DNA of 64,000 bases from Muricea muricata (taxonomy: Eukaryota > Cnidaria > Anthozoa > Malacalcyonacea > Plexauridae). Shown piece after piece: positions 8,047 through 37,287 of this stretch (position 1 is the stretch's first letter; every line of letters starts with the position of its first letter). The position numbers and the translations under genes are program-made. Below the pieces are notes generated by a model that had not been told where the DNA came from, ran no database searches, and saw nothing but the letters and a program-made list of their open reading frames with translations. Where the stretch lies: the NCBI GenBank assembly GCA_963855995.1, contig OY979726.1, positions 647,001-711,000 of the forward strand. The letters are read 5' to 3'.

Positions 8047-8233
8047 ACAAATAGATTTCATTTTTGCTTGCGTCTGTACTGTAATAGATCACAGATGACG
8101 TCATAGCGTGTGAAGAACAAAAAAGTACGCACGAGACGCAGCCGAGTGCGTGACTTTTTTATCTTCACACGCCATGACGTTATCTGTGATCTATTACAGT
8201 ACAGAAGCACAAAAAAATGAAATCTATTTGTTT
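8047..8233. mobile_element. Hairpin containing the intact target of the giant element
   Basis: Two arms of about 85 bp (AACAAATAGATTTCATTTTT… and …AAATGAAATCTATTTGTTTT) pair around a short GACGCAGCCGAG loop. AAATCTAT at 8,220-8,227 lies in the right arm. The right-arm sequence recurs at about 14,788-14,850 and is there interrupted, after AAATCTAT, by the 18-kb element. The local copy therefore acts as a paralogous empty site. Confidence 0.8.
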
Positions 8234-8754
8234 TATATTATAATAAAGTTGGCAAAAATCATGCGAAGACCCGCGAAATAAATTAGCTAAATTAAGATCA
8301 CGCCATCAGTTGACGTCATCCATGCGTGTGTACTTTAATAACACACAGCTCGCGACCAATGAAAATGCAGAACGAACACGCATTATTATAAAATTATAAA
8401 TATTTCTTATATGGTTATGGTGTTTTACCGTAAACTAACACACTCGCATTTTCCATATTTTCACTAGTGAAGATATGAAAATCTGTTCTCTGTAAGCTTG
8501 TTCCGACTTCTGACCATATAATAAAAAGAAAAAACATAACACGGTAGCTTGAAGATATGAATATTTTTTTTCTCGTGTTGAAAACAATATTTTACTCACT
8601 CGCTGCGTTCGTTCGTAAAATATTGTTTTCACCACTCGAAAATATTCATATCTTCAAGCTACCGTGTAATGTCTTCTCTATATATATATACATATAATGT
8701 ATAAACGTGTTAGTTTTGGTTTGCGAAATACAAAAGAGTGCTCAATGACATATA
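8234..8754. repeat. Dispersed repeat, left part (copy 1)
   Basis: From TTGTTTTATATTATAATAAA to GTGCTCAATGACAT this is collinear and highly similar to 33,083-33,655. It includes a perfect-looking hairpin at 8,539-8,667 (ACACGGTAGCTTGAAGATAT and its complement). The repeat continues at 10,330 after the interrupting mariner-like element and leads into a Penelope-like frame, so it may be the 5' part of that retroelement family (inference). Confidence 0.7.
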
Positions 8755-10327: not shown

Positions 10328-10329
10328 TA

Positions 10330-13879: not shown

Positions 13880-14765
13880 ACAATTTTTGGCGCGCCTAAG
13901 GTGCATTACGTAATGTTTTTGAATAGCCTTGACCACCCTGATAATTGTAGCGTATAAACTTATCTAACTTCTGTACAGTCAGTTGTATTTTACAATAGTG
14001 AAGGAAATCGCCATTTGTTATAATTTCGGGTAATTACCGCCCTTTGGCCACTCCGGAGGCCACCCCTAGATCATTTTTGCGCCCCTGCCCTGAGATTTTA
14101 CAGCTTTCCTGCACCCGAGATCTCAGCAAAAACAGCCACACTGCACTCTGGCTAATGATGGAAGTTTCCAATTTTTCCCTCCCACCCGCTCTGGAAGTTC
14201 TTATCGTCTTTCACCCCTGGTGGAATTTATCAGTTGGTTAATTTCCCTTTGGGAACTAATGATACTTCCAACAACCCCCTTCTCCCCCTGGAATTTTGAG
14301 ATTTCTCTACAGGGAATGCAGATAACAACTAAAACATAAAAATACTTATGATAAACAATATTCATGCTTACAGTACCTGATCCATGCTCAGAATTGTCGA
14401 AATGTTCAACCAGTGGTCTGCTCTGCGATCTTCAACACGTTTATTTCGTCTGAAGCGACAAGAAGCAAAAAAATTTTGCTTTTTACCCACATATTTTTGA
14501 ATTTAGCAAAAAATTGTAGGCGGCCATATTCTGCAGATTGCAGTTTTATATATGTATGCAATGAAGTACTGAATCGATTTTCTCTCAGAATACAGTGGGC
14601 TCTTGATTAAAAATGCCAAGTAATCCTCAATGCTAATAATCTAATCCCCAATGCTAATAATCGAAATCCGATGATTGGAAACAATTTTTGTCGCAAAATT
14701 CCGGGTGGCGAAATTTTTTAGAGCGGGCAGTCAAGTCTTGTATATTTTGGCAAATGTTCCATTAG
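13880..14765. repeat. Dispersed repeat A, copy 1
   Basis: Collinear with 37,759-38,690: GCGCCTAAGGTGCATTAC, then AGATCATTTTTGCGCCCCTG, then TTGTCGCAAAATTC, ending near GTTCCA in both. The copies differ by substitutions and by an insertion of about 70 bp in copy 2 near 37,827-37,900. I see no protein family in its frames. The two copies bracket the giant element and the DDE transposon. Confidence 0.7.
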
Positions 14766-14842
14766 TAACAAGACCTTGACCTTGTTCTTCACACGCTATG
14801 GCGTCATCTGTGGTCTATTACAGTACAGAAGCACAAAAAAAG

Positions 14843-14850
14843 AAATCTAT
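14843..14850. repeat. Left 8-bp target site duplication
   Basis: AAATCTAT directly precedes the left terminus (ATGGAAAGCCATAGC) of the 18-kb element and is repeated directly after its right terminus at 33,075-33,082. The related uninterrupted sequence at 8,220-8,227 has AAATCTAT once. Confidence 0.9.
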
Positions 14851-15847
14851 ATGGAAAGCCATAGCTGTCTTAAGTGATAAAACGTCATTTCATTAGGTGC
14901 TTTATACATTATATACGGTGCTTTAAACATGACATGCGGTGCTTTGAGTATTATATGCGGTGCTTTAAACATTATATGCGGTGCTTTGAGCATTATATGC
15001 GGTGCTTTAAGCATTATATGCGGTGCTTTAAACATTATATGCGGTGCTTTAAACATTATATGCGGTGCTTTAAACATTATATGCAGTGCTTTAAACATTA
15101 TATGCGGTGCTTCGAGCATTATATGCGGTGCTTTAAACATTATATGCGGTGCTTTGAGTATTATATGCGGTGCTTTAAACATTATATGCGGTGCTTCGAG
15201 CATTATATGCGGTGCTTTAAACATTATATGCGGTGCTTCGAACATTATATGCGGTGCTTCGAACATTATATGCGGTGCTTTGAACATTATATGCTGTGCT
15301 TTGAGCATTATACACAGTGCTTTCATCATTATACGCAGGTATTTCATCATTATACGCGGTGCTTTCATCATTATATGCGGTGCTTTCATCATTATGCGCG
15401 GTGATTTCACCTTTGTACGCGGTGCTTTCATCATTATATGCGGTGCTTTCACCTTTATACGCAGTGCTTTGAACATTATACGCGGTGGTTCCAGCGTCAT
15501 TATACTCAGTGAGCCAGTACCTTTGGTCAGCGTTGTGGAATCTTACACGATTCTGCTTACGTCATGTCATCAAGAATATCTAAACACTCATCGAATATTC
15601 ATAGGGCGATCACGTGTCATTTCCTGCTTGGAAATTTACAAGTTGAGCGCAGTTATAAAACGGTAAAATATATAAGACTTTTCTGGCGTTTTAAATCGAA
15701 AGTAAACCCAAAGGGTTTGAAATATGGAACAAATACTGAAGGAACAAATATCGTTAATATATGGAACAAATATCTTTAAATTTGGGGACTTTGCGTGGCC
15801 GATTTGAAGCACAGCGAATAGAACCGCAGGCAGTTTTAAATTTAATG
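14851..15847 (+). repeat. Left inverted arm of the giant element
   Basis: Order from outside: 47 bp of terminal sequence, the 21-bp array, then a unique segment with TGAGCCAGTACCTTTGGTCA, CACGTGTCATTTCCTGC, AACCCAAAGGGTTTG and GCGTGGCCGATTTGAAGC, ending GCAGTTTTAAATTTAATG. Everything is found in reverse order and complement at 32,191-33,074. This arm has about 35 extra bases around 15,736-15,775 (duplicated GGAACAAATAT words) and about four more 21-bp units than the right arm. Confidence 0.9.
14898..15503. repeat. 21-bp minisatellite, left arm (about 29 copies)
   Basis: The consensus begins GCGGTGCTTT and continues AAACATTATAT. Most variation is at one or two positions (AAACATT, GAGCATT, GAGTATT, CATCATT). 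Because 21 is divisible by three, several frames stay open on both strands and yield heptapeptide repeats such as ICGALNI or MRCFKHY. These are not taken as coding. Confidence 0.9.
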
Positions 15848-18800
15848 CGAAATTTTGAAAAATTTTGGGAAAAAATTTTGGCAAAAAATTTGGGAAAAAA
15901 ATTTGAAAAAAAATTCGGGAAAAAATTTTGGCAAAAAATTCTGAAAAAATTTGGGAAAAAATCTTGAAAAAAAATTCTGGAAAAAATTTTTAAAAAAAAT
16001 TTGGGAAATTCATGAATAATTTATGAATATTCATGAATAATTCATGATAATTCATGAAAAATATTGGGGAAAATTTTGAACAAAAAATTTGGGAAAAAAA
16101 TTTGAAAAAAAATTCGGGAAAAAATTTTGGCAAAAAATTCTGAAAAAAATTTGGGAAAAAATCTTGAAAAAAAATTCTGGAAAAATTTTGAAAAAAATTT
16201 GGGAAATTCATGAATAATTCATGAATAATTCATGAATAATCATGAATAATTCATGATAATTCATGAAAAATATTGGGGAAAATTTTGAACAAAAAAATTT
16301 GGGAAAAAATTTTGAAAAAAAAATGTGGGAAAAAATTCTAAAAAAAAAATTTGGGAAAAAATTCTGAAAAAAAAAATTGACAAAAATATTGGGGAAAATT
16401 TTGAACAAAAAATTTGGGAAAAAATTTTGAAAAAAGTTTGGGAAAAAAATTTGAAAAAAAATTCGGGAAAAAATTTTGACAAAAAATTCTGAAAAAAATT
16501 TGGGAAAAAATCTTGAAAAAAAATTCTGGAAAAAATTTTGAAAAAAAATTTGGGAAATTCATGAATAATTCATAAATATTTCATGAATAATTCATGATAA
16601 TTCATGAAAAATATTGGGGAAAATTTTGAATAAAAAATTTGGGAAAAAATTTTGAAAAAAGTTTGGAAAAAAAATTTGAAAAAAATTCGGGAAAAAATTT
16701 TGACAAAAAACTTTGACAAAAAATTCTGAAAAAAATTTGGGAAAAAATCTTGAAAAAAAATTCTGGAAAGAATTTTGAAAAAAATTTTGGGAAATTCATG
16801 AATAATTCATGAATATTCATGAATAATTTATGATATTTCATGAATAATCATGAATAATTCATGAAAATCATGAATAATTCATGATCATGAATAATTCATG
16901 AATTTTTCAGGAAAAAATCTTGAAAAAAATTAGGAAAAAGTTTTGACAAAATTTTTTTTCCCAATTTCTTTTTCAAAATTTTTTCCTGAATTTTTTTTCA
17001 AGATTTTTTCCTGGAAAATTCATGAATTATTCATGAATCATTCATGAATTATTCATGAATCATTCATGAATTATTCATGAATTTCATGAATTATTCATGA
17101 TATTCATGAATTATTCATGATTTCCCAAATTTTTTTCAGAATTTTTTCCCAAATTTTTTTTTCAAAATTTTTTTCCCAAATTTTTTTTAAAATTTCCCAA
17201 AAAAATTTGGGAAAAAATTTCGGGAAAAAATTTCGAAAAAAAATTTGGAAAAAAATTCTGAAAAAAAAATTTGGAAAAAGAATTCTAAAAAAATTTGGGA
17301 AAAAATTTTGAAAAAAGTTTGGGACAAAAAATTCTGAAAAAAATTTGGGAAAAAATCTTGAAAAAAAATTCTGGAAAGAATTTTGAAAAAAATTTTGGGA
17401 AATTCATGAATAATTCATGAATAATTTATGAATATTTCATGAATAATCATGAATAATTCATGAAAATCATGAATAATTCATGATCATGAATAATTCATGA
17501 ATTTTTCAGGAAAAAATCTTGAAAAAAATTAGGAAAAAGTTTTGACAAAATTTTTTTTCCCAATTTCTTTTTCAAAATTTTTTCCTGAATTTTTTTTCAA
17601 GATTTTTTCCTGGAAAATTCATGAATTATTCATGAATCATTCATGAATTATTCATGAATTTCATGAATTATTCATGATATTCATGAATTATTCATGATTT
17701 CCCAAATTTTTTTCAGAATTTTTTCCCAAATTTTTTTTTCAAAATTTTTTTCCCAAATTTTTTTTAAAACTTCCCAAAAAAATTTGGGAAAAAATTTCGG
17801 GAAAAAATTTCGAAAAAAAATTTGGAAAAAAATTCTGAAAAAAAAATTTGGAAAAAGAATTCTAAAAAAATTTGGGAAAAAAATTTGAAAAAAAATTGGG
17901 AAAAAAATTTGAAAAAAATTCGGGAAAAAATTTTGACAAAAAACTTTGACAAAAAATTCTGAAAAAAATTTGGGAAAAAATCTTGAAAAAAAATTCTGGA
18001 AAGAATTTTGAAAAAAATTTTGGGAAATTCATGAATAATTCATGAATAATTCATGAATAATCATGAATAATTCATGATAATTCATGAAAAATATTGGGGA
18101 AAATTTTGAACAAAAAAATTTGGGAAAAAATTTTGAAAAAAAAATGTGGGAAAAAATTCTAAAAAAAAAATTTGGGAAAAAATTCTGAAAAAAAAAATTG
18201 ACAAAAATATTGGGGAAAATTTTGAACAAAAAATTTGGGAAAAAATTTTGAAAAAAGTTTGGGAAAAAAATTTGAAAAAAAATTCGGGAAAAAATTTTGA
18301 CAAAAAATTCTGAAAAAAATTTGGGAAAAAATCTTGAAAAAAAATTCTGGAAAAAATTTTGAAAAAAAATTTGGGAAATTCATGAATAATTCATAAATAT
18401 TTCATGAATAATTCATGATAATTCATGAAAAATATTGGGGAAAATTTTGAATAAAAAATTTGGGAAAAAATTTTGAAAAAAGTTTGGGAAAAAAATTTGA
18501 AAAAAATTCGGGAAAAAATTTTGACAAAAAACTTTGACAAAAAATTCTGAAAAAAATTTGGGAAAAAATCTTGAAAAAAAATTCTGGAAAGAATTTTGAA
18601 AAAAATTTTGGGAAATTCATGAATAATTCATGAATATTCATGAATAATTTATGATATTTCATGAATAATCATGAATAATTCATGAAAATCATGAATAATT
18701 CATGATCATGAATAATTCATGAATTTTTCAGGAAAAAATCTTGAAAAAAATTAGGAAAAAGTTTTGACAAAATTTTTTTTCCCAATTTCTTTTTCAAAAT

Positions 18801-21800
18801 TTTTTCCTGAATTTTTTTTCAAGATTTTTTCCTGGAAAATTCATGAATTATTCATGAATCATTCATGAATTATTCATGAATCATTCATGAATTATTCATG
18901 AATTTCATGAATTATTCATGATATTCATGAATTATTCATGATTTCCCAAATTTTTTTCAGAATTTTTTCCCAAATTTTTTTTTCAAAATTTTTTTCCCAA
19001 ATTTTTTTTAAAATTTCCCAAAAAAATTTGGGAAAAAATTTCGGGAAAAAATTTCGAAAAAAAATTTGGAAAAAAATTCTGAAAAAAAAATTTGGAAAAA
19101 GAATTCTAAAAAAATTTGGGAAAAAATTTTGAAAAAAGTTTGGGAAAAAAATTTGAAAAAAATTCGGGAAAAAATTTTGACAAAAAACTTTGACAAAAAA
19201 TTCTGAAAAAAATTTGGGAAAAAATCTTGAAAAAAAATTCTGGAAAGAATTTTGAAAAAAATTTTGGGAAATTCATGAATAATTCATGAATATTCATGAA
19301 TAATTTATGAATATTTCATGAATAATCATGAATAATTCATGAAAATCATGAATAATTCATGATCATGAATAATTCATGAATTTTTCAGGAAAAAATCTTG
19401 AAAAAAATTAGGAAAAAGTTTTGACAAAATTTTTTTTCCCAATTTCTTTTTCAAAATTTTTTCCTGAATTTTTTTTCAAGATTTTTTCCTGGAAAATTCA
19501 TGAATTATTCATGAATCATTCATGAATTATTCATGAATTTCATGAATTATTCATGATATTCATGAATTATTCATGATTTCCCAAATTTTTTTCAGAATTT
19601 TTTCCCAAATTTTTTTTTCAAAATTTTTTTCCCAAATTTTTTTTAAAATTTCCCAAAAAAATTTGGGAAAAAATTTCGGGAAAAAATTTCGAAAAAAAAT
19701 TTGGAAAAAAATTCTGAAAAAAAAATTTGGAAAAAGAATTCTAAAAAAATTTGGGAAAAAATTTTGAAAAAAGTTTGGGAAAAAAATTTGAAAAAAATTC
19801 GGGAAAAAATTTTGACAAAAAACTTTGACAAAAAATTCTGAAAAAAATTTGGGAAAAAATCTTGAAAAAAAATTCTGGAAAGAATTTTGAAAAAAATTTG
19901 GGAAATTCATGAATAATTCATGAATAATTCATGAATAATCATGAATAATTCATGATAATTCATGAAAAATATTGGGGAAAATTTTGAACAAAAAAATTTG
20001 GGAAAAAATTTTGAAAAAAAAATGTGGGAAAAAATTCTAAAAAAAAAATTTGGGAAAAAATTCTGAAAAAAAAAAATTGACAAAAATATTGGGGAAAATT
20101 TTGAACAAAAAATTTGGGAAAAAATTTTGAAAAAAGTTTGGGAAAAAAATTTGAAAAAAAATTCGGGAAAAAATTTTGACAAAAAATTCTGAAAAAAATT
20201 TGGCAAAAAATCTTGAAAAAAAATTCTGGAAAAAATTTTGAAAAAAAATTTGGGAAATTCATGAATAATTCATAAATATTTCATGAATAATTCATGATAA
20301 TTCATGAAAAATATTGGGGAAAATTTTGAATAAAAAATTTGGGAAAAAATTTTGAAAAAAGTTTGGGAAAAAAATTTGAAAAAAATTCGGGAAAAAATTT
20401 TGACAAAAAACTTTGACAAAAAATTCTGAAAAAAATTTGGGAAAAAATCTTGAAAAAAAATTCTGGAAAGAATTTTGAAAAAAATTTTGGGAAATTCATG
20501 AATAATTCATGAATATTCATGAATAATTTATGATATTTCATGAATAATCATGAATAATTCATGAAAATCATGAATAATTCATGATCATGAATAATTCATG
20601 AATTTTTCAGGAAAAAATCTTGAAAAAAATTAGGAAAAAGTTTTGACAAAATTTTTTTTCCCAATTTCTTTTTCAAAATTTTTTCCTGAATTTTTTTTCA
20701 AGATTTTTTCCTGGAAAATTCATGAATTATTCATGAATCATTCATGAATTATTCATGAATCATTCATGAATTATTCATGAATTTCATGAATTATTCATGA
20801 TATTCATGAATTATTCATGATTTCCCAAATTTTTTTCAGAATTTTTTCCCAAATTTTTTTTTCAAAATTTTTTTCCCAAATTTTTTTTAAAATTTCCCAA
20901 AAAAATTTGGGAAAAAATTTCGGGAAAAAATTTCGAAAAAAAATTTGGAAAAAAATTCTGAAAAAAAAATTTGGAAAAAGAATTCTAAAAAAATTTGGGA
21001 AAAAATTTTGAAAAAAGTTTGGGAAAAAAATTTGAAAAAAATTCGGGAAAAAATTTTGACAAAAAACTTTGACAAAAAATTCTGAAAAAAATTTGGGAAA
21101 AAATCTTGAAAAAAAATTCTGGAAAGAATTTTGAAAAAAATTTGGGAAATTCATGAATAATTCATGAATAATTCATGAATAATCATGAATAATTCATGAT
21201 AATTCATGAAAAATATTGGGGAAAATTTTGAACAAAAAAATTTGGGAAAAAATTTTGAAAAAAAAATGTGGGAAAAAATTCTAAAAAAAAAATTTGGGAA
21301 AAAATTCTGAAAAAAAAAATTGACAAAAATATTGGGGAAAATTTTGAACAAAAAATTTGGGAAAAAATTTTGAAAAAAGTTTGGGGAAAAAATTTGAAAA
21401 AAAATTCGGGAAAAAATTTTGACAAAAAATTCTGAAAAAAATTTGGCAAAAAATCTTGAAAAAAAATTCTGGAAAAAATTTTGAAAAAAAATTTGGGAAA
21501 TTCATGAATAATTCATAAATATTTCATGAATAATTCATGATAATTCATGAAAAATATTGGGGAAAATTTTGAATAAAAAATTTGGGAAAAAATTTTGAAA
21601 AAAGTTTGGGAAAAAAATTTGAAAAAAATTCGGGAAAAAATTTTGACAAAAAACTTTGACAAAAAATTCTGAAAAAAATTTGGGAAAAAATCTTGAAAAA
21701 AAATTCTGGAAAGAATTTTGAAAAAAATTTTGGGAAATTCATGAATAATTCATGAATATTCATGAATAATTTATGATATTTCATGAATAATCATGAATAA

Positions 21801-24800
21801 TTCATGAAAATCATGAATAATTCATGATCATGAATAATTCATGAATTTTTCAGGAAAAAATCTTGAAAAAAATTAGGAAAAAGTTTTGACAAAATTTTTT
21901 TTCCCAATTTCTTTTTCAAAATTTTTTCCTGAATTTTTTTTCAAGATTTTTTCCTGGAAAATTCATGAATTATTCATGAATCATTCATGAATTATTCATG
22001 AATCATTCATGAATTATTCATGAATTTCATGAATTATTCATGATATTCATGAATTATTCATGATTTCCCAAATTTTTTTCAGAATTTTTTCCCAAATTTT
22101 TTTTTCAAAATTTTTTTCCCAAATTTTTTTTAAAACTTCCCAAAAAAATTTGGGAAAAAATTTCGGGAAAAAATTTCGAAAAAAAATTTGGAAAAAAATT
22201 CTGAAAAAAAAATTTGGAAAAAGAATTCTAAAAAAATTTGGGAAAAAATTTTGAAAAAAAATTGGGAAAAAAATTTGAAAAAAATTCGGGAAAAAATTTT
22301 GACAAAAAACTTTGACAAAAAATTCTGAAAAAAATTTGGGAAAAAATCTTGAAAAAAAATTCTGGAAAGAATTTTGAAAAAAATTTTGGGAAATTCATGA
22401 ATAATTCATGAATATTCATGAATAATTTATGATATTTCATGAATAATCATGAATAATTCATGAAAATCATGAATAATTCATGATCATGAATAATTCATGA
22501 ATTTTTCAGGAAAAAATCTTGAAAAAAATTAGGAAAAAGTTTTGACAAAATTTTTTTTCCCAATTTCTTTTTCAAAATTTTTTCCTGAATTTTTTTTCAA
22601 GATTTTTTCCTGGAAAATTCATGAATTATTCATGAATCATTCATGAATTATTCATGAATTTCATGAATTATTCATGATATTCATGAATTATTCATGATTT
22701 CCCAAATTTTTTTCAGAATTTTTTCCCAAATTTTTTTTTCAAAATTTTTTTCCCAAATTTTTTTTAAAATTTCCCAAAAAAATTTGGGAAAAAATTTCGG
22801 GAAAAAATTTCGAAAAAAAATTTGGAAAAAAATTCTGAAAAAAAAATTTGGAAAAAGAATTCTAAAAAAATTTGGGAAAAAATTTTGAAAAAAGTTTGGG
22901 AAAAAAATTTGAAAAAAATTCGGGAAAAAATTTTGACAAAAAACTTTGACAAAAAATTCTGAAAAAAATTTGGGAAAAAATCTTGAAAAAAAATTCTGGA
23001 AAGAATTTTGAAAAAAATTTTGGGAAATTCATGAATAATTCATGAATATTCATGAATAATTTATGATATTTCATGAATAATCATGAATAATTCATGAAAA
23101 TCATGAATAATTCATGATCATGAATAATTCATGAATTTTTCAGGAAAAAATCTTGAAAAAAATTAGGAAAAAGTTTTGACAAAATTTTTTTTCCCAATTT
23201 CTTTTTCAAAATTTTTTCCTGAATTTTTTTTCAAGATTTTTTCCTGGAAAATTCATGAATTATTCATGAATCATTCATGAATTATTCATGAATCATTCAT
23301 GAATTATTCATGAATTTCATGAATTATTCATGATATTCATGATATTCATGAATTATTCATGATTTCCCAAATTTTTTTCAGAATTTTTTCCCAAATTTTT
23401 TTTTCAAAATTTTTTTCCCAAATTTTTTTTAAAATTTCCCAAAAAAATTTGGGAAAAAATTTCGGGAAAAAATTTCGAAAAAAAATTTGGAAAAAAATTC
23501 TGAAAAAAAAATTTGGAAAAAGAATTCTAAAAAAATTTGGGAAAAAATTTTGAAAAAAGTTTGGGAAAAAAATTTGAAAAAAATTCGGGAAAAAATTTTG
23601 ACAAAAAACTTTGACAAAAAATTCTGAAAAAAATTTGGGAAAAAATCTTGAAAAAAAATTCTGGAAAGAATTTTGAAAAAAATTTGGGAAATTCATGAAT
23701 AATTCATGAATAATTCATGAATAATCATGAATAATTCATGATAATTCATGAAAAATATTGGGGAAAATTTTGAACAAAAAAATTTGGGAAAAAATTTTGA
23801 AAAAAAAATGTGGGAAAAAATTCTAAAAAAAAAATTTGGGAAAAAATTCTGAAAAAAAAAATTGACAAAAATATTGGGGAAAATTTTGAACAAAAAATTT
23901 GGGAAAAAATTTTGAAAAAAGTTTGGGAAAAAAATTTGAAAAAAAATTCGGGAAAAAATTTTGACAAAAAATTCTGAAAAAAATTTGGGAAAAAATCTTG
24001 AAAAAAAATTCTGGAAAAAATTTTGAAAAAAAATTTGGGAAATTCATGAATAATTCATAAATATTTCATGAATAATTCATGATAATTCATGAAAAATATT
24101 GGGGAAAATTTTGAATAAAAAATTTGGGAAAAAATTTTGAAAAAAGTTTGGGAAAAAAATTTGAAAAAAATTCGGGAAAAAATTTTGACAAAAAACTTTG
24201 ACAAAAAATTCTGAAAAAAATTTGGGAAAAAATCTTGAAAAAAAATTCTGGAAAGAATTTTGAAAAAAATTTTGGGAAATTCATGAATAATTCATGAATA
24301 TTCATGAATAATTTATGATATTTCATGAATAATCATGAATAATTCATGAAAATCATGAATAATTCATGATCATGAATAATTCATGAATTTTTCAGGAAAA
24401 AATCTTGAAAAAAATTAGGAAAAAGTTTTGACAAAATTTTTTTTCCCAATTTCTTTTTCAAAATTTTTTCCTGAATTTTTTTTCAAGATTTTTTCCTGGA
24501 AAATTCATGAATTATTCATGAATCATTCATGAATTATTCATGAATCATTCATGAATTATTCATGAATTTCATGAATTATTCATGATATTCATGAATTATT
24601 CATGATTTCCCAAATTTTTTTCAGAATTTTTTCCCAAATTTTTTTTTCAAAATTTTTTTCCCAAATTTTTTTTAAAATTTCCCAAAAAAATTTGGGAAAA
24701 AATTTCGGGAAAAAATTTCGAAAAAAAATTTGGAAAAAAATTCTGAAAAAAAAATTTGGAAAAAGAATTCTAAAAAAATTTGGGAAAAAATTTTGAAAAA

Positions 24801-27800
24801 AGTTTGGGAAAAAAATTTGAAAAAAATTCGGGAAAAAATTTTGACAAAAAACTTTGACAAAAAATTCTGAAAAAAATTTGGGAAAAAATCTTGAAAAAAA
24901 ATTCTGGATAGAATTTTGAAAAAAATTTTGGGAAATTCATGAATAATTCATGAATATTCATGAATAATTTATGAATATTTCATGAATAATCATGAATAAT
25001 TCATGAAAATCATGAATAATTCATGATCATGAATAATTCATGAATTTTTCAGGAAAAAATCTTGAAAAAAATTAGGAAAAAGTTTTGACAAAATTTTTTT
25101 TCCCAATTTCTTTTTCAAAATTTTTTCCTGAATTTTTTTTCAAGATTTTTTCCTGGAAAATTCATGAATTATTCATGAATCATTCATGAATTATTCATGA
25201 ATTTCATGAATTATTCATGATATTCATGAATTATTCATGATTTCCCAAATTTTTTTCAGAATTTTTTCCCAAATTTTTTTTTCAAAATTTTTTTCCCAAA
25301 TTTTTTTTAAAACTTCCCAAAAAAATTTGGGAAAAAATTTCGGGAAAAAATTTCGAAAAAAAATTTGGAAAAAAATTCTGAAAAAAAAATTTGGAAAAAG
25401 AATTCTAAAAAAATTTGGGAAAAAATTTTGAAAAAAAATTGGGAAAAAAATTTGAAAAAAATTCGGGAAAAAATTTTGACAAAAAACTTTGACAAAAAAT
25501 TCTGAAAAAAATTTGGGAAAAAATCTTGAAAAAAAATTCTGGAAAGAATTTTGAAAAAAATTTTGGGAAATTCATGAATAATTCATGAATAATTCATGAA
25601 TAATCATGAATAATTCATGATAATTCATGAAAAATATTGGGGAAAATTTTGAACAAAAAAATTTGGGAAAAAATTTTGAAAAAAAAATGTGGGAAAAAAT
25701 TCTAAAAAAAAAATTTGGGAAAAAATTCTGAAAAAAAAAATTGACAAAAATATTGGGGAAAATTTTGAACAAAAAATTTGGGAAAAAATTTTGAAAAAAG
25801 TTTGGGAAAAAAATTTGAAAAAAAATTCGGGAAAAAATTTTGACAAAAAATTCTGAAAAAAATTTGGGAAAAAATCTTGAAAAAAAATTCTGGAAAAAAT
25901 TTTGAAAAAAAATTTGGGAAATTCATGAATAATTCATAAATATTTCATGAATAATTCATGATAATTCATGAAAAATATTGGGGAAAATTTTGAATAAAAA
26001 ATTTGGGAAAAAATTTTGAAAAAAGTTTGGGAAAAAAATTTGAAAAAAATTCGGGAAAAAATTTTGACAAAAAACTTTGACAAAAAATTCTGAAAAAAAT
26101 TTGGGAAAAAATCTTGAAAAAAAATTCTGGAAAGAATTTTGAAAAAAATTTTGGGAAATTCATGAATAATTCATGAATATTCATGAATAATTTATGATAT
26201 TTCATGAATAATCATGAATAATTCATGAAAATCATGAATAATTCATGATCATTAATAATTCATGAATTTTTCAGGAAAAAATCTTGAAAAAAATTAGGAA
26301 AAAGTTTTGACAAAATTTTTTTTCCCAATTTCTTTTTCAAAATTTTTTCCTGAATTTTTTTTCAAGATTTTTTCCTGGAAAATTCATGAATTATTCATGA
26401 ATCATTCATGAATTATTCATGAATCATTCATGAATTATTCATGAATTTCATGAATTATTCATGATATTCATGAATTATTCATGATTTCCCAAATTTTTTT
26501 CAGAATTTTTTCCCAAATTTTTTTTTCAAAATTTTTTTCCCAAATTTTTTTTAAAATTTCCCAAAAAAATTTGGGAAAAAATTTCGGGAAAAAATTTCGA
26601 AAAAAAATTTGGAAAAAAATTCTGAAAAAAAAATTTGGAAAAAGAATTCTAAAAAAATTTGGGAAAAAATTTTGAAAAAAGTTTGGGAAAAAAATTTGAA
26701 AAAAATTCGGGAAAAAATTTTGACAAAAAACTTTGACAAAAAATTCTGAAAAAAATTTGGGAAAAAATCTTGAAAAAAAATTCTGGAAAGAATTTTGAAA
26801 AAAATTTTGGGAAATTCATGAATAATTCATGAATATTCAGGAATAATTTATGAATATTTCATGAATAATCATGAATAATTCATGAAAATCATGAATAATT
26901 CATGATCATGAATAATTCATGAATTTTTCAGGAAAAAATCTTGAAAAAAATTAGGAAAAAGTTTTGACAAAATTTTTTTTCCCAATTTCTTTTTCAAAAT
27001 TTTTTCCTGAATTTTTTTTCAAGATTTTTTCCTGGAAAATTCATGAATTATTCATGAATCATTCATGAATTATTCATGAATTTCATGAATTATTCATGAT
27101 ATTCATGAATTATTCATGATTTCCCAAATTTTTTTCAGAATTTTTTCCCAAATTTTTTTTTCAAAATTTTTTTCCCAAATTTTTTTTAAAACTTCCCAAA
27201 AAAATTTGGGAAAAAATTTCGGGAAAAAATTTCGAAAAAAAATTTGGAAAAAAATTCTGAAAAAAAAATTTGGAAAAAGAATTCTAAAAAAATTTGGGAA
27301 AAAATTTTGAAAAAAAATTGGGAAAAAAATTTGAAAAAAATTCGGGAAAAAATTTTGACAAAAAACTTTGACAAAAAATTCTGAAAAAAATTTGGGAAAA
27401 AATCTTGAAAAAAAATTCTGGAAAGAATTTTGAAAAAAATTTTGGGAAATTCATGAATAATTCATGAATATTCATGAATAATTTATGATATTTCATGAAT
27501 AATCATGAATAATTCATGAAAATCATGAATAATTCATGATCATGAATAATTCATGAATTTTTCAGGAAAAAATCTTGAAAAAAATTAGGAAAAAGTTTTG
27601 ACAAAATTTTTTTTCCCAATTTCTTTTTCAAAATTTTTTCCTGAATTTTTTTTCAAGATTTTTTCCTGGAAAATTCATGAATTATTCATGAATCATTCAT
27701 GAATTATTCATGAATTTCATGAATTATTCATGATATTCATGAATTATTCATGATTTCCCAAATTTTTTTCAGAATTTTTTCCCAAATTTTTTTTTCAAAA

Positions 27801-30800
27801 TTTTTTTCCCAAATTTTTTTTAAAATTTCCCAAAAAAATTTGGGAAAAAATTTCGGGAAAAAATTTCGAAAAAAAATTTGGAAAAAAATTCTGAAAAAAA
27901 AATTTGGAAAAAGAATTCTAAAAAAATTTGGGAAAAAATTTTGAAAAAAGTTTGGGAAAAAAATTTGAAAAAAATTCGGGAAAAAATTTTGACAAAAAAC
28001 TTTGACAAAAAATTCTGAAAAAAATTTGGGAAAAAATCTTGAAAAAAAATTCTGGAAAGAATTTTGAAAAAAATTTTGGGAAATTCATGAATAATTCATG
28101 AATATTCATGAATAATTTATGATATTTCATGAATAATCATGAATAATTCATGAAAATCATGAATAATTCATGATCATGAATAATTCATGAATTTTTCAGG
28201 AAAAAATCTTGAAAAAAATTAGGAAAAAGTTTTGACAAAATTTTTTTTCCCAATTTCTTTTTCAAAATTTTTTCCTGAATTTTTTTTCAAGATTTTTTCC
28301 TGGAAAATTCATGAATTATTCATGAATCATTCATGAATTATTCATGAATCATTCATGAATTATTCATGAATTTCATGAATTATTCATGATATTCATGAAT
28401 TATTCATGATTTCCCAAATTTTTTTCAGAATTTTTTCCCAAATTTTTTTTTCAAAATTTTTTTCCCAAATTTTTTTTAAAATTTCCCAAAAAAATTTGGG
28501 AAAAAATTTCGGGAAAAAATTTCGAAAAAAAATTTGGAAAAAAATTCTGAAAAAAAAATTTGGAAAAAGAATTCTAAAAAAATTTGGGAAAAAATTTTGA
28601 AAAAAGTTTGGGAAAAAAATTTGAAAAAAATTCGGGAAAAAATTTTGACAAAAAACTTTGACAAAAAATTCTGAAAAAAATTTGGGAAAAAATCTTGAAA
28701 AAAAATTCTGGAAAGAATTTTGAAAAAAATTTGGGAAATTCATGAATAATTCATGAATAATTCATGAATAATCATGAATAATTCATGATAATTCATGAAA
28801 AATATTGGGGAAAATTTTGAACAAAAAAATTTGGGAAAAAATTTTGAAAAAAAAATGTGGGAAAAAATTCTAAAAAAAAAATTTGGGAAAAAATTCTGAA
28901 AAAAAAAATTGACAAAAATATTGGGGAAAATTTTGAACAAAAAATTTGGGAAAAAATTTTGAAAAAAGTTTGGGAAAAAAATTTGAAAAAAAATTCGGGA
29001 AAAAATTTTGACAAAAAATTCTGAAAAAAATTTGGGAAAAAATCTTGAAAAAAAATTCTGGAAAAAATTTTGAAAAAAAATTTGGGAAATTCATGAATAA
29101 TTCATAAATATTTCATGAATAATTCATGATAATTCATGAAAAATATTGGGGAAAATTTTGAATAAAAAATTTGGGAAAAAATTTTGAAAAAAGTTTGGGA
29201 AAAAAATTTGAAAAAAATTCGGGAAAAAATTTTGACAAAAAACTTTGACAAAAAATTCTGAAAAAAATTTGGGAAAAAATCTTGAAAAAAAATTCTGGAA
29301 AGAATTTTGAAAAAAATTTTGGGAAATTCATGAATAATTCATGAATATTCATGAATAATTTATGATATTTCATGAATAATCATGAATAATTCATGAAAAT
29401 CATGAATAATTCATGATCATGAATAATTCATGAATTTTTCAGGAAAAAATCTTGAAAAAAATTAGGAAAAAGTTTTGACAAAATTTTTTTTCCCAATTTC
29501 TTTTTCAAAATTTTTTCCTGAATTTTTTTTCAAGATTTTTTCCTGGAAAATTCATGAATTATTCATGAATCATTCATGAATTATTCATGAATCATTCATG
29601 AATTATTCATGAATTTCATGAATTATTCATGATATTCATGAATTATTCATGATTTCCCAAATTTTTTTCAGAATTTTTTCCCAAATTTTTTTTTCAAAAT
29701 TTTTTTCCCAAATTTTTTTTAAAATTTCCCAAAAAAATTTGGGAAAAAATTTCGGGAAAAAATTTCGAAAAAAAATTTGGAAAAAAATTCTGAAAAAAAA
29801 ATTTGGAAAAAGAATTCTAAAAAAATTTGGGAAAAAATTTTGAAAAAAGTTTGGGAAAAAAATTTGAAAAAAATTCGGGAAAAAATTTTGACAAAAAACT
29901 TTGACAAAAAATTCTGAAAAAAATTTGGGAAAAAATCTTGAAAAAAAATTCTGGATAGAATTTTGAAAAAAATTTTGGGAAATTCATGAATAATTCATGA
30001 ATATTCATGAATAATTTATGAATATTTCATGAATAATCATGAATAATTCATGAAAATCATGAATAATTCATGATCATGAATAATTCATGAATTTTTCAGG
30101 AAAAAATCTTGAAAAAAATTAGGAAAAAGTTTTGACAAAATTTTTTTTCCCAATTTCTTTTTCAAAATTTTTTCCTGAATTTTTTTTCAAGATTTTTTCC
30201 TGGAAAATTCATGAATTATTCATGAATCATTCATGAATTATTCATGAATTTCATGAATTATTCATGATATTCATGAATTATTCATGATTTCCCAAATTTT
30301 TTTCAGAATTTTTTCCCAAATTTTTTTTTCAAAATTTTTTTCCCAAATTTTTTTTAAAACTTCCCAAAAAAATTTGGGAAAAAATTTCGGGAAAAAATTT
30401 CGAAAAAAAATTTGGAAAAAAATTCTGAAAAAAAAATTTGGAAAAAGAATTCTAAAAAAATTTGGGAAAAAATTTTGAAAAAAAATTGGGAAAAAAATTT
30501 GAAAAAAATTCGGGAAAAAATTTTGACAAAAAACTTTGACAAAAAATTCTGAAAAAAATTTGGGAAAAAATCTTGAAAAAAAATTCTGGAAAGAATTTTG
30601 AAAAAAATTTTGGGAAATTCATGAATAATTCATGAATATTCATGAATAATTTATGATATTTCATGAATAATCATGAATAATTCATGAAAATCATGAATAA
30701 TTCATGATCATGAATAATTCATGAATTTTTCAGGAAAAAATCTTGAAAAAAATTAGGAAAAAGTTTTGACAAAATTTTTTTTCCCAATTTCTTTTTCAAA

Positions 30801-32190
30801 ATTTTTTCCTGAATTTTTTTTCAAGATTTTTTCCTGGAAAATTCATGAATTATTCATGAATCATTCATGAATTATTCATGAATTTCATGAATTATTCATG
30901 ATATTCATGAATTATTCATGATTTCCCAAATTTTTTTCAGAATTTTTTCCCAAATTTTTTTTTCAAAATTTTTTTCCCAAATTTTTTTTAAAATTTCCCA
31001 AAAAAATTTGGGAAAAAATTTCGGGAAAAAATTTCGAAAAAAAATTTGGAAAAAAATTCTGAAAAAAAAATTTGGAAAAAGAATTCTAAAAAAATTTGGG
31101 AAAAAATTTTGAAAAAAGTTTGGGAAAAAAATTTGAAAAAAATTCGGGAAAAAATTTTGACAAAAAACTTTGACAAAAAATTCTGAAAAAAATTTGGGAA
31201 AAAATCTTGAAAAAAAATTCTGGAAAGAATTTTGAAAAAAATTTTGGGAAATTCATGAATAATTCATGAATATTCATGAATAATTTATGAATATTTCATG
31301 AATAATCATGAATAATTCATGAAAATCATGAATAATTCATGATCATGAATAATTCATGAATTTTTCAGGAAAAAATCTTGAAAAAAATTAGGAAAAAGTT
31401 TTGACAAAATTTTTTTTCCCAATTTCTTTTTCAAAATTTTTTCCTGAATTTTTTTTCAAGATTTTTTCCTGGAAAATCATGAATTATTCATGAATCATTC
31501 ATGAATTATTCATGAATTTCATGAATTATTCATGATATTCATGAATTATTCATGATTTCCCAAATTTTTTTCAGAATTTTTTCCCAAATTTTTTTTTCAA
31601 AATTTTTTTCCCAAATTTTTTTTAAAATTTCCCAAAAAAATTTGGGAAAAAATTTCGGGAAAAAATTTCGAAAAAAAATTTGGAAAAAAATTCTGAAAAA
31701 AAAATTTGGAAAAAGAATTCTAAAAAAACTTGGGAAAAAATTTTGAAAAAAAGTTTGGGAAAAAAATTTGAAAAAAAAAATTTGGGAAAAAATTCTGAAA
31801 AAAAATTTGGGAAAAAAATTTGAAAAAAAATTAGGAAAAAGTTTTGACAAAAAAATTTTTTCCCAATTTCTTTTTCAAAATTTTTTCCGGAATTTTTTTC
31901 AAGATTTTTTCTTGAAAAATTCATGAATTATTCATGATATTCATGAATTATTTATTATTTCCCAATTTTTTTTTCAAAATTTTTTCCAGAATTTTTTTGC
32001 AAGATTTTTTCCCAAATTTTTTTTTCAGAATTTTTTGTCAAAGTTTTTTGTCAAAATTTTTTCCAGAATTTTTTTTTCAAATTTTTTTCCCGAACTTTTT
32101 TCAAAATGTTTTCCCAAATTTTTTTTTCAAAATTTTTTCCCAAATTTTTTTCAAATTTTTTTTCCCAAATTTTTTTTCAATTTTTTTCCC
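15848..32190. repeat. Higher-order satellite core, 635/1,244-bp monomers
   Basis: The array is made of four motifs: GGGAAAAAATTTTGAAAAAA-type purine-rich runs, their pyrimidine-rich complements, ATTCATGAATAATTCATGAA-type palindromic runs, and junctions of the two strands that form hairpins. A marker block (ATTCATGATTTCCCAAATTT) recurs 18 times, starting near 17,117, 17,694, 18,938, 19,573, 20,817, 22,060, 22,694, 23,359, 24,602, 25,237, 26,481, 27,116, 27,750, 28,406, 29,649, 30,284, 30,918 and 31,552. Spacings are close to either 635 or 1,244 bp (577 once). The long form has an extra block of about 609 bp carrying AAAAATATTGGGGAAAATTT. The left edge is in the purine-rich and the right edge in the pyrimidine-rich orientation, continuing the inverted symmetry of the arms. 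Confidence 0.9.
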
Positions 32191-33074
32191 ATTAAATTTA
32201 AAACTGCCTGCGGTTCTATTCGCTGTGCTTCAAATCGGCCACGCAAAGTCCCCAAATTTAAAGATTGCAGTATTTGTTCCATATTTCAAACCCTTTGGGT
32301 TTACTTTCGATTTAAAACGCCAGAAAAGTCTTATATATTTTACCGTTTTATAACTGCGCTCAACTTGTAAATTTCCAAGCAGGAAATGACACGTGATCGC
32401 CCTATGAATATTCGATGAGTGTTTAGATATTCTTGATGACATGACGTAAGCAGAATCGTGTAAGATTCCACAACGCTGACCAAAGGTACTGGCTCACTGA
32501 GTATAATGACGCTGAAACCACCGCGTATAATGTTCAAAGCACTGCGTATAAAGGTGAAAGCACCGCATATAATGATGAAAGCACCGCGTACAAAGGTGAA
32601 ATCACCGCGTATAATGATGAAAGCACCGCATATAATGATGAAAGCACCGCGTATCATAATGATGAAATACCTGCGTATAATGATGAAAGCACTGTGTATA
32701 ATGCTCAAAGCACAGCATATAATGTTCAAAGCACCGCATATAATGTTCGAAGCACCGCATATAATGTTTAAAGCACCGCATATAATGCTCGAAGCACCGC
32801 ATATAATGTTTAAAGCACCGCATATAATGTTTAAAGCACCGCATATAATGTTTAAAGCACCGCATATAATGTTTAAAGCACCGCATGTAATGATTAAAGC
32901 ACCGCATATAATGCTTAAAGCACCGCATATAATGCTCAAAGCACCGCATATAATGTTTAAAGCACCGCATATAATACTCAAAGCACCGCATGTCATGTTT
33001 AAAGCACCGTATATAATGTATAAAGCACCTAATGAAATGACGTTTTATCACTTAAGACAGCTATGGCTTTCCAT
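32191..33074 (-). repeat. Right inverted arm of the giant element
   Basis: Reverse complement of 14,851-15,847, beginning CATTAAATTTAAAACTGC at the core side and ending GCTATGGCTTTCCAT at the outer end. Single-base differences from the left arm are few in the unique parts; the main difference is length of the minisatellite and of the AACAAATAT segment. Confidence 0.9.
32508..33027. repeat. 21-bp minisatellite, right arm (about 25 copies)
   Basis: Same unit as 14,898-15,503 in the opposite orientation. One unit has three extra bases (GTATCATAATGATG near 32,651), shifting the phase of the frames past that point. The variant order at the core-proximal end (CATCATT, CTTTGTACGC, CTTTATACGC units) matches the left arm; the outer middle part differs by several whole units. 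Confidence 0.9.
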
Positions 33075-33082
33075 AAATCTAT
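33075..33082. repeat. Right 8-bp target site duplication
   Basis: AAATCTAT directly follows the right terminus and is then followed by TTGTTTTATATTATAATAAA, exactly the sequence that follows the single AAATCTAT at 8,220-8,227. Confidence 0.9.
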
Positions 33083-33984
33083 TTGTTTTATATTATAATA
33101 AAGTTGGCAAAAATCATGCGAAGACCCGCGAAATAAATTCGCTAAATTAGATCACGCCATCAGTTGACGTCATCCATGCATGTGTACTTTAATAACACAC
33201 AGCTCGCGACCAATGAAAATGCAGAATGAACACGTATTATTATATAATTATAAATATTTATTATATGGTTATGGGTATTTTACCGTAAACTAAAACAATC
33301 GCATTTTCCATATTTTCACTAGTGAAGATATGAAAAAATATGTAACGCGTGAAAAACGCGTGTGTTTTCCCGCGGGATTTCTATGTTCTCTGCTAGCTTG
33401 TTCCGACTTCTGACCATATAACAAAAGGAAAAAACATAACACGGTAGCTTGAAGATATGAATATTTTTTCTCGTGTTGAAAACAATATTATACTCACTCG
33501 CTGCGTTCGTTCGTAAAATATTGTTTTCACCACTCAAAAATAATATTGATCTTCAAGCTACCGTGTAATGTCCTCTCTCTCTATATATATTCATATAATA
33601 TATGAACGTGTTAGTTTTGGTTTGCGAAATACAAAAGAGTGCTCAATGACATACAGACAGTCCAAAATATATAATCGGGCAAAAACCTCAAAAACTGACC
33701 ACTACAGTCTGTTTCATCTAGAAGGAATCTTCAGATAGTAGAAAAATATTTTGAAATGTAGTGGCAAGTTTTTGGGGTATTTTGCAGGATTATACGTTTT
33801 GCTCTATGTTATTGAGCACTCTTTTGTATTTCGCAAACTAAAACTTACACATTTATATCCGCACCCTATATTGGTTGTGCACTCTCGTTTTTGAAATCTG
33901 ATTTTCTACCTCAAAATGAGACAATTTCGACTGGACTCACTGAAAAACATCCCTTGATCCCTATACCATCAAGGGGCAACTATT
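33083..33984 (+). repeat. Dispersed repeat (copy 2) leading into Penelope-like start
   Basis: Copy of 8,228-8,754 plus 10,330-10,657 without the mariner-like insertion; the junction here reads GACATACAGACAG. It includes the hairpin at 33,439-33,566 (ACACGGTAGCTTGAAGATAT). Near 33,916 the ATGAGACAATTTCGACTGGA start of the Penelope-like frame is present but soon stopped, and it is cut at 33,985 by the next transposon. Confidence 0.7.
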
Positions 33985-35649
33985 CGGGGTCACTCCATGT
34001 CAATTCATCAGATTTTTGTGGAATTTGTAATCCGACATTTCAGATTTGGCTAATTTTCGCTGTACTGGTAGACATTAGTAGGAAATGGAAGCACGCAAAA
34101 TTTGAAGTCAATATCTCAAACGGTTATTGATTTATAACTCATAATTTATAATCAAAAATTGACTGGTTGGAAGATGTTAGGTACCTCAAATTTCACTTCC
34201 GGTACAACACACTAAATTCAAAAGTACATAATAACTTATGTATTTGTCCTATTCCTCTGAAATTTGGCAAACTGAACCTATTCTTAATGGAGAAGATGAA
34301 AATCATATTGAACATACGGTACAAGTACACCACGTCTATTTATTACGATAATAATTGGGTATTTCCGGTTTTGAAAATTTATGCATGTCTTTGTTTCAGG
34401 TCAAAAATTTTTATGTCTCCGACTAGATATGAAGATATGATATATGTCTGATGAAAGACCAAACTTTAATCTATCAAGAAACACTATTGTAAACATTTGC
34501 ATATGAACCGTCGAACCCCATTACAGTTCCGGTTCAAAAAAATGAAATTTTTAAGACATTTTTTTGACGTCCCAAAATTATGGAAAAGGAAAACATGTCA
34601 CATCGAAGTCAAAGTCTCGAAAACTTTTGGGTAAGACCATTTTTAATCACAACATTTATATATACACATTTGAGTTGATCACGTTTTGCATTTGCAATAG
34701 CAATCTGCAATTAGGTCTAGTTTAGGCGGCTTGATAAAGTTTTCAAACGTCAGGCGTACAATAGTTTGATAATTTCAAACATCGCATTGTTACTTTAGAT
34801 TTTATGTCGCAGTTATTAGGCTACTCATCTACTTTAATGTTTCTTCTTTCATTTTATGTCGGTTTACGTGGCACATTGTTCGTTACTATGGCAATACACA
34901 CGTACGAAATTCTCTCTAACATAACTCATTGCTTTGTCTAATTAAAATGAAGCGCGGTGATCTCCAATTCTTTTCGATAAATATTTTTTTGGCATTACAA
35001 TTTTATTCTATTTTGGTCTGTTGAAAGACTTTTGCAGTACAATTCAGTGTGTAAAATTTCAACATAGGTCACCGCACAAAATAATGAAATGTAGCGCAAT
35101 ATTGTTCAAAAATGAACTTTTCTGATTATGTCAGCTATTGACATGCAACGTTATAAACCCGTACAATGACGCGAGATTGCGCCAGCAAGGTGCCACGTCA
35201 GGTAATATATATAAGTCCATCCTTTCGTTACTATACGCGAAGAAACGAATGGTCACGCGGGTTTGCAATGAATGTGTCATTTACCCTGTCGAATATTGTT
35301 AGGTTATTCATATTAATTTTGCGCTGGGAAACGTTAATTTATTTATTTATTTATTGTGCTTCGCTTCCAAACATCGTACAATAATTGCATTAAAGAAGCT
35401 GGGATACCACAACAGCTTAACACCAATTACAGCGGGCCCTTTACAAAATATCAGTATTAATATGGAAACAGAAATAATTAACAATTTTTCGCCGAAGGCC
35501 GCGTGATTATCGTTGAGTAGGGCGAAGACAAAGTCGATGTTTTCATTTAACAATAACCACCGAGCCTGAGGCGAATAATTGTTTTAGTGTGATTTCATAG
35601 GTGATTATTTCATAGGTGATTAATGTGTCTGACATGTTACAGTCTCCAT

Positions 35650-37287
35650 TTAGCGGCTGCATGTCGTCAGAAATTTTGTATTTATTTTCCTGCAGTCTTC
35701 TTCGCTGATTTTGTATACTCGACCAGTTGCAGTAACAGGAGCCTGGATTTGACATATGACATCTGTAATGGGTACCCAACAAACATCAAGTCTTCTTGGC
35801 CACTGGAAACTTGGTGAGTGTCCAGGAGGGTGTAAGAAGTTTATCTTCACATCTTGTTCCACTTCGCTAACTTCATCAACCACACCAATCCACCACTTTT
35901 CGTCGTACATGCATGCAACATATTCACTCAATCGTATGGATTCTATGGTCACGTCCTTGATTTCTGGCTCCCCAGTCATGTTAAATGAACCAAGGAAAAA
36001 ATCATCTTCTGCAGTACGTTTGAAAGCGATCACATTCGTACCTACTGGTGTAAAAATGTGGCAACCTCTTGTTCCGAGTATTGTATGACCGCTGGCAAAT
36101 CTTTCTTTTAGCTGCGCCCTAACTTCTTCCACTCTTTCCTTCAAGATATGAATAAATGTTATACCAGGGATGTTTGCCTTACAAAATGAAAGCATTGACG
36201 AAACATTCAAAATTTGTTCCTTTGCAAGCTTGCTCGTGCGGTTAGTCTCTTTACTGTTACGCCAATGCCGTCACACGGTGATTTCCCATGACTTGTTGCG
36301 AAGAAACTCCAAGTCGCCTCAATGCCAAAATCAACTTTGTGTCGACACAAATTTAACATGTTTTTGAAGTTTTTGTATTGGGCTGCACATCCATCAGAAA
36401 AATACTCGAATTTAGTGATGGTTGGGAGTGTTGTGTTAAGGGGGTCCAATAGTAAATAATTTCAAAATTCATCGATTTTCAAAAATTTTACAAACTATTG
36501 TTAACGGCGTTCTCTAAACATATCCAAAATTTCAAACAACAAAATGAATTATAAACGGAAAAATTCAGCAAATTCTACACCGTGTTAGGGTAAAACCATG
36601 ATTTTACCCAGAGCAAATAATGGTATGCAATTGGTTTACTCTATTGTGTCCTTTTCCATAGCATTGTTCGATTAATGTTATTCTAATGCATGCAAAAACT
36701 TTAAAGCAGTTTTTCTCAAATTGCTGAAAACCACCAATTGCCATTATTGCATGCGCAATATCTCAAGAAGTATGTAAGCTATTGACTTCAAACTTTCAGT
36801 GTGTGTTCTGTGTTACATTCTCTTGGAGATGAACCAGAATCATAAAAATATTTGCAATAGCATGCAAGTTATGATAGTCAGTATCATCTCGATAATATCT
36901 AGTTTCAACATTTTGTCCGCAAAAAATTTATGTTTGCCTCAATCACCATAGTTCTGGTTCATCTCCAAGAGCATGTGATACACTATTAAAATAAAGTTAT
37001 TTTAGATTTTTATCATTCATAGTTGTTGAGAAATCATGTTTACAAATATATGGATTTTTCACCGTCAGGGAGTAATTAACATGGTAACCATGGCAATGGT
37101 AACTTTGAAAAACTTATTTTTATGTTTGTGGTACCATGTCCTAACACCTGACCAAAGATGAACTGCATAGCATTAAAACACGCAAAAATTGTTTTTTTAG
37201 TATTGGACCCCCTTAAGGAAAATTACTGACGAAAACGATATATGATTATTCATTAGTTTAAGAGAGAAGCGGTGGTTGAACAACTTC
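35650..37287 (-). pseudogene. Transposase-like protein, frameshifted and interrupted
   Basis: Read on the minus strand, the frame opens after a possible splice acceptor (TTTATTGACTTAG, about 37,288-37,300), is interrupted by the MITE at 36,440-37,212, and resumes with FEYFSDGCAAQYKN and FFATSHGKSPCDGIG to TARASLQ. This is a pattern I recognise from transposon-derived proteins widespread in cnidarians and insects; the aspartate in FSDG is a plausible catalytic residue of an RNase H-like fold. After ASLQ the frame shifts by one near 36,215, and the protein continues in the next frame (KEQILNVSSM … down to KINTKFLTTC, stop at about 35,650). With a frameshift and an insertion it cannot be functional as it stands. 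Confidence 0.65.
36440..37212. mobile_element. TTAA-flanked MITE nested in the transposase
   Basis: The ends are GGGGGTCCAATA and TATTGGACCCCC, flanked directly by TTAA at 36,436-36,439 and 37,213-37,216. Removal of the element plus one TTAA rejoins the transposase frame. Further inward there are paired words around TTCTGGTTCATCTCCAAGAG (36,823-36,842 complement and 36,953-36,972). TTAA duplication indicates a piggyBac- or Kolobok-type donor enzyme. Confidence 0.85.

Follow-up and report, generated by a model that had tools for sequence, protein, structure and literature searches.

The window analysed here is a 64,000-bp stretch of the Muricea muricata genome (contig OY979726.1; C11:647001-711000 in our contig numbering of an assembly of 453 Mb and 74 contigs), and it holds a large insertion whose interior is a long satellite array. 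At a probability of about 0.86, we assign this element to a foldback family of the IS3EU (IS3EU/GingerRoot) type that is young, abundant and non-autonomous; in this reading, the core grew privately within the copy and mobility depended on the transposase of a coding relative. The reading is carried by the ends of the element, its target-site duplication (TSD), the number of copies, the junctions they have in common, an array private to the window copy and a coding relative with the same ends. Tentatively, and at somewhat below even odds, we further suggest that the family acts as a mobile satellite seeder derived from one founder, in which a palindrome-rich seed delivered by each insertion would grow into a private array, the insertions being concentrated near chromosome ends.

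Ends, target site and arms of the window element

The base directly outside ATGG is T in all 56 distinct flanks of family ends in the host genome. This gives TATGG as the terminus, reduces the duplication to 6 bp (AATCTA) and extends the element over 14850-33075. An earlier note on this DNA had described an 8-bp duplication, an appearance produced by the flanking A/T bases, and an insertion of 18,224 bp as one unit; the single unit stands, with its size amended to 18,226 bp. The sequence AAATCTAT is present four times in the window, at 8220, 11951, 14843 and 33075. The left flank (14777-14850) corresponds to 8151-8227, an uninterrupted copy of the site in which AATCTA occurs once (8221-8226), in agreement with the flank without insert that had been noticed near 8,209-8,250. 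The right flank, from 33075 onward, matches 8220-8752 and then continues in 10328-10635. Because both flanks match an uninterrupted copy elsewhere in the window, a single insertion event into a copy of this repeat is shown directly.

The TATGG boundary was applied to 21 elements, namely 20 fetched copies and the window copy. The 6-bp duplication is perfect in 17 of them and carries a single mismatch in L088, L094 and L102, while a length of 7 bp fits in L091. When left and right flanks of different elements were paired, none of the 420 combinations agreed. In 41 of the 56 flanks, an A lies three positions beyond the duplication (binomial 9e-9 against the window A frequency, both flanks of an insertion being counted).

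Short self-palindromic segments were also seen in the window at 8046-8232, 3514-3821, 51063-51472 and 56292-56523, and the empty target site lies at the right end of the first. A direct repeat pair, 92% alike, occupies 13991-14761 and 37909-38691, with one copy directly left of the target repeat.

The inverted termini, which the earlier note had called perfect, are identical over the outer 182 bp. The two arms, 989 and 877 bp in size, differ by four substitutions and six length differences (42, 21, 21, 3, 28 and 3 bp). No enzyme was found among the nine long open reading frames (ORFs) scanned in the element, seven of which have no Pfam match at 0.01. The other two read through the 21-bp subterminal repeats and match only repeat folds, with the Pfam ice-binding beta roll above cut-off at 14881-15663 and 32340-33041 (7.2e-15 and 3.8e-12), which is probably a by-product of the 7-residue repetition. 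The long ORFs of the element consist of read-through of these repeats and of the low-complexity core. Rfam gave no match over the whole window at the gathering threshold.

The family in the host genome and its coding relatives

A search with the 53-bp end, allowing up to three mismatches, returned 105 forward and 102 reverse matches in the genome, and the reversed-pattern control returned 0 and 0. Further copies with cores of very different size, for which the earlier note had proposed to look, are thus present, with duplications of 6 bp rather than the 8 given there. Pairing was based on 100 listed ends of the 207 and one further end, and gave 40 elements of 2,397-15,847 bp (median 4,206.5). 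The 20 further copies that were fetched range from 2.4 to 8.1 kb with cores of 1.1-6.0 kb, and all 20 share their arms and satellite core with the window copy. Among them, other sequence of at least 60 bp was found only in L091, L093, L095 and L096, and shortened arms in L090 and L097. An additional, solo left end was found 901 bp ahead of the complete copy L095 (C5:1171367). Another 14 ends were inspected; satellite follows in 13 of them and coding sequence in one, L086. Further large copies are located at C7:1086412-1102260 (15.8 kb, of which the first 8 kb were read) and on C5 (10.0 kb). The window element ranks among the longest copies of the family; a copy on C12 may be longer, reaching at least 14.4 kb up to position 432000 with its left end not reached and with a spacing of often 711 bp between the 57-bp markers described below.

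Divergence of the inner arm averages 0.9% within elements (19 elements; 0 in the window copy) and 1.2% between elements (761 comparisons). The junction between arm and satellite follows the same codon in every arm where a junction was found, within a gene of the coding relatives here called gene 1. Where an element shows both junctions (17 cases), these are always an AATGC-type and an AATGG-type junction (the second of L094 is AATTGG), and one junction is missing in 4 of the 21 elements (L090, L091, L093 and L097). This fixed, shared junction inside gene 1, followed by satellite, argues for a non-autonomous foldback family with one founder, and a single founder of the satellite-bearing copies would be the simplest reading of the sequences. 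On C4-C7, 30 of 40 insertions fall in the outermost 2.5 Mb of a contig, where 26-33% would be expected, depending on the contig (p 0.0002-0.03, for ends listed as exact matches). Contig C1 (124 Mb) carries one satellite copy among the listed ends, yet several coding relatives.

L086/L107 contains two inverted copies of an ORF with the start MEQI...LGTLRGRFEAQRIEPQAVL, and the same start ends both arms of the window element. Longer open frames were found on C1 and C2 by protein search (L112 and L114-L117; 469-507 aa, 63-75% identity, one with an internal stop), together with weaker relatives down to about 31% identity. A total of 39 rows of that search are confined to the first 29-59 residues of gene 1, consistent with satellite copies. 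The 25-bp end, the 21-bp repeats and gene 1 occur in L112, L114, L115, L116 and L117, and no end was seen in L113 within the stretch examined. L115 (C1:24578931-24586190; 7,260 bp) has the same ends, the TSD CGCATG on both sides and, on its other strand, a transposase core matching the integrase domain PF24764 rva_4 (1.3e-44, with a second piece at 2.6e-18); an rve match is below cut-off. An enzyme-coding relative with the same ends, for which the earlier note had proposed to search, exists on C1 in a diverged and interrupted form. The coding copies nearest to the window arms are coding foldbacks, with L109 matching the right arm at 93.6% over 877 bp. L109 and L110 (C12:7720441 and 7309247; 0.4 Mb apart) are complete 3,205-bp foldbacks with the same ends, coding halves and no satellite match. 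They differ at 10 sites, and the common CTCAAA and left flanks 98.7% alike over 750 bp indicate that they represent one insertion within (segmentally) duplicated DNA. These two are possible intermediates.

Excerpts of PMC12730594 give 6-bp TSDs and TAYGG..CCRTA ends as the diagnosis of IS3EU, and excerpts of PMC10045372 give TA..TA termini with TSDs usually of 6 bp. The family has TATGG..CCATA ends with T at position -1 of every flank, and 6-bp duplications in both the satellite copies (17 of 21 perfect) and the coding relative (CGCATG/CGCATG). The rva_4 core found in the diverged coding relative may represent the IS3/IS481-like DDE transposase of an IS3EU element; the assignment follows from the ends and the duplications. 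The long, internally repetitive inverted arms and the middle of variable size, as seen in the paired and fetched copies, conform to the foldback class. A TSD of 6 bp departs from Mutator/FB elements of the D. melanogaster FB type (about 9 bp; 8-10 bp in Tetris) and, together with the corrected ends, rules out hAT or Merlin. P elements have TSDs of 7-8 bp, so that the P superfamily, including Galileo, does not fit either; one copy of 21 (L091) fits 7 bp. Polinton/Maverick elements have AG..CT ends and genes for polymerase B and capsid, but the ends here are TA..TA and none of the nine scanned ORFs contains such genes. Their TSD, 6 bp in an excerpt of PMC10045372, is alike. A total of 48 viral-contig stretches match the 15-bp end, which was judged to be chance at 15 bases. 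The 28-base 21-mer pattern had no match in viral_contigs, the 25-base pattern none in genome_contigs and the inner arm none in phages.

The satellite core and the origin of its array

The interior of the window element is an AT-rich higher-order repeat of about 16.36 kb in which A-rich and T-rich blocks alternate, and the earlier description of 16.3 kb of satellite cargo lacking an enzyme is borne out within the nine scanned ORFs. Eighteen markers of 57 bp delimit 17 units, of which 11 are short (577-665 bp) and six are long (1243-1244 bp), with an average divergence of 0.3% and 0.2%, respectively, gaps left out. One unit, as single-stranded DNA, folds far better than its shuffled versions (z -24.9; 20 shuffles). 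The marker with up to two mismatches has 121 matches in the genome, and its control has none. The exact marker has 18, all 18 of which are inside the window element. Elsewhere, the 79 listed one-mismatch and three listed two-mismatch matches all have T for one C; these figures cover the listed matches, and 21 of the 121, all with two mismatches, are not listed. The window element contains 18 copies of a 235-bp T-rich module (counted from a minimum of 200 bp at 88% identity), and each of the 20 fetched copies contains 0-5. Higher-order periods differ from copy to copy, and the C7 and C12 giants possess arrays of their own. The absence of the exact marker from any other locus suggests that the 16-kb array most likely grew inside the window copy. 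The family appears to spread a short satellite seed rather than a finished array. Satellite growth thus proceeds copy by copy, and we infer that it came after insertion.

In the founder, we propose, a short piece of simple-sequence satellite would have become enclosed by two inverted copies of the 5' part of an enzyme-coding element, comprising its terminus, 21-bp repeats and SAM-like gene start. A DDE transposase supplied by a coding relative would recognise the TATGG ends and the 21-bp repeats, excise the element and reinsert it with duplication of 6 bp, regardless of the sequence enclosed. Each foldback-shaped core could subsequently expand or contract independently by unequal exchange or replication slippage. 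In the window copy, one variant unit would have been multiplied to 18 higher-order units, leading to an element of 18.2 kb.

Several points weigh against this proposal. All findings come from a single genome assembly, and recognition of the ends by the transposase, like transposition itself, is deduced here from sequence. The gene 1 protein matches SAM below the Pfam cut-off (0.0038, or 0.0011 for a longer relative), and ORFs on the other strand of L115 have weak HTH and SAM matches that are also below it. The transposase of L115 is split over three ORFs with a LINE-like ORF, recognised by eye, between them; being interrupted, this copy may be inactive as a transposase source. The gene 1 protein of L115 is 64% identical to that of the coding foldback, and L115 is thus not the direct parent of the family. 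It resembles the window arm at 81-84% in its subterminal part, and its own two ends agree at about 90%. A close enzyme-coding parent was not found. The private C of the marker could occur among the 21 unlisted two-mismatch matches, and the expansion could have taken place in a donor copy that was later lost.

This last point leads to the idea that the 16-kb array had already reached full length in a donor and was moved as one piece, so that the family transports finished arrays. The clean duplication, the single inserted unit and the empty-site homologue speak for such a move, as do the other large copies on C7 (15.8 kb), C12 (at least 14.4 kb) and C5 (10.0 kb). However, no second locus carries the exact unit marker, the 235-bp module is 18-fold here against at most five in each of 20 others, the higher-order periods differ between copies, and the donor must be lost or unassembled, which makes the transport of a finished array quite unlikely. 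The earlier note had proposed that a transposable unit carrying a satellite could spread it to new loci; a mobile, multicopy carrier is confirmed, and the travel of finished arrays is not. We regard it as rather doubtful that two foldback ends captured, possibly more than once, a satellite already present in the genome. The three satellite motifs (up to two mismatches) have no match in L107-L118, the coding relatives and coding foldbacks, and the satellite begins abruptly within gene 1, which indicates an outside origin at least once. The common junctions in 17 of 17 elements tested argue against repeated capture. Moreover, 40 of the 43 listed marker matches on C1-C10 lie within 16 kb inward of a listed family end and the other three adjoin the inner arm at C4:1459588, so that no free genomic satellite with the marker was seen among these 43. 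Long AT-rich arrays of near-identical hairpin units assemble poorly, and the exact unit number of the window array is uncertain. Nevertheless, an assembly artefact, in which repeat collapse or expansion joined two unrelated arms, is highly improbable given the matching 6-bp duplication and empty site at the locus and the arm-satellite-arm make-up of all 20 fetched relatives elsewhere.

The question of how higher-order satellites are born is an old one, and it is mostly approached in retrospect. In this family, a single founder would have given rise to on the order of a hundred copies, and the fetched copies show one and the same initial satellite, each expanded to a different degree. The mobile ends, the possible intermediates and the transposase-coding relative are all found within one genome. 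Growth rates, unit choice and homogenisation of satellites thereby become measurable, and IS3EU-type elements are added to the origins of foldback elements. If the family is indeed a mobile seeder, satellite birth would be traceable copy by copy from one founder.

Table 1. Features of the foldback element and its target site, in window coordinates.
Feature	Position	Strand	Basis
Whole element, TATGG...CCATA, non-autonomous IS3EU-type foldback	14850..33075 (18,226 bp)	.	End family, flanks, TSD
Left TSD AATCTA, 6 bp	14844..14849	.	
Right TSD AATCTA, 6 bp	33076..33081	.	
Empty-site copy of target repeat, single AATCTA at 8221-8226	8151..8752	+	
Right flank, target repeat also seen at 8227-8752 and 10328-10635	33082..33955	+	
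Left arm: terminal 45 bp, 21-bp repeats, unique inner part, gene 1 start, fixed junction ...GCAGTTTTA	14850..15838	+	
Right arm, inverted copy, same junction	32199..33075	-	
About 28 subterminal 21-bp repeats, consensus GGTGCTTTAAACATTATATGC	14896..15487	+	
Right-arm subterminal 21-bp repeats, limits approximate	32513..33029	-	
5' end of gene 1 of the relatives, MEQISLNLGTLRGRFEAQRIEPQAVL, then satellite	15761..15838	+	
5' end of gene 1 in right arm, MEQILQSLNLGTLRGRFEAQRIEPQAVL	32199..32282	-	
Satellite core: 12-13-bp A-rich/T-rich and 11-bp ATTCATGAATT submotifs, alternating orientation	15839..32198	.	
Private higher-order array, 18 exact 57-bp markers	17194..31685	+	

Other repeats were observed in the window outside the element. 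At 34260-37655, an ORF (35650-36270) with no Pfam match above cut-off is enclosed by inverted repeats about 300 bp in size, with 92% likeness over 304 bp; this is perhaps another DNA transposon. A minisatellite with a unit of about 80 bp, about 95% alike, lies at 57567-59089 in the region of USO1-like coding pieces. A tandem repeat at 42363-43640, partly in an open frame (TDISLMQTSLSYTDIS...), is located directly before a ZnT-like exon. ORFs of the window resemble animal ZnT, USO1 and HMGCL genes; Pfam support for these names is confined to a Cation_efflux match below cut-off.

Comparison with known systems

Tetris of Drosophila virilis, with its foldback-born satellites, is the closest precedent (PMC4079207). 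Excerpts of that paper describe a non-autonomous foldback with tandem-repeat arms and a variable non-coding middle, whose internal tandem repeats expanded within copies to kb-size satellite arrays. The TSDs reported in them are 8-10 bp, Mutator is suggested by the authors, and they found no transposase-coding copy. The present family is similar in its non-autonomous foldback form, repeat-bearing arms, variable non-coding middle and apparent in-copy satellite expansion. The Tetris satellite derives from arm repeats of about 220 bp, according to the same excerpts, whereas here the satellite is the core. Compared by description only, the present family also differs from Tetris in its 6-bp TSD, its IS3EU-type ends and its diverged transposase-coding relative.

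The arm layout also resembles that of the TU foldback elements of sea urchin, which possess an outer domain of short tandem repeats, an inner unique domain and unrelated middles; their TSD of 8 bp differs from the 6 bp found here. PMC4079207 cites a sea-urchin foldback paper by Lieberman et al. (1983). Galileo, of the P superfamily, is alike in having long foldback-like arms that lengthen via direct repeats, and its longest copy, at 9,021 bp, lacks the transposase segment (PMC4168063, excerpts). It differs in its TSDs of 7 or 8 bp and its P-type transposase, and no such satellite core is mentioned in those excerpts (PMC4168063).

The TAYGG..CCRTA ends and the 6-bp TSDs are shared with IS3EU/GingerRoot, and the integrase-like DDE transposase of the coding relative is probably a further common feature. 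The excerpts of PMC10045372 and PMC12730594 contain no mention of a foldback form that is long, internally repetitive and built around a satellite core. Links between IS3EU and satellites appear in excerpts of two other papers: the Crassostrea gigas satellites CgiSat35 and CgiSat47 are labelled DNA/IS3EU (PMC8268682), and half of the beetle TCAST10 resembles IS3EU-1_TC (PMC5844308). In the open-licence literature searched, no paper contains any of six repeat or end strings, and IS3EU and foldback occur together only in PMC8268682, where, in the excerpt, foldback stands merely in the reference list. The earlier statement that no family of this exact structure was known thus holds for the combination in the open-licence literature searched, and its components, Tetris and IS3EU, have been described. 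What is new here is the IS3EU-type ends, the position of the satellite as the core, the coding relative and the single-variant evidence for private growth.

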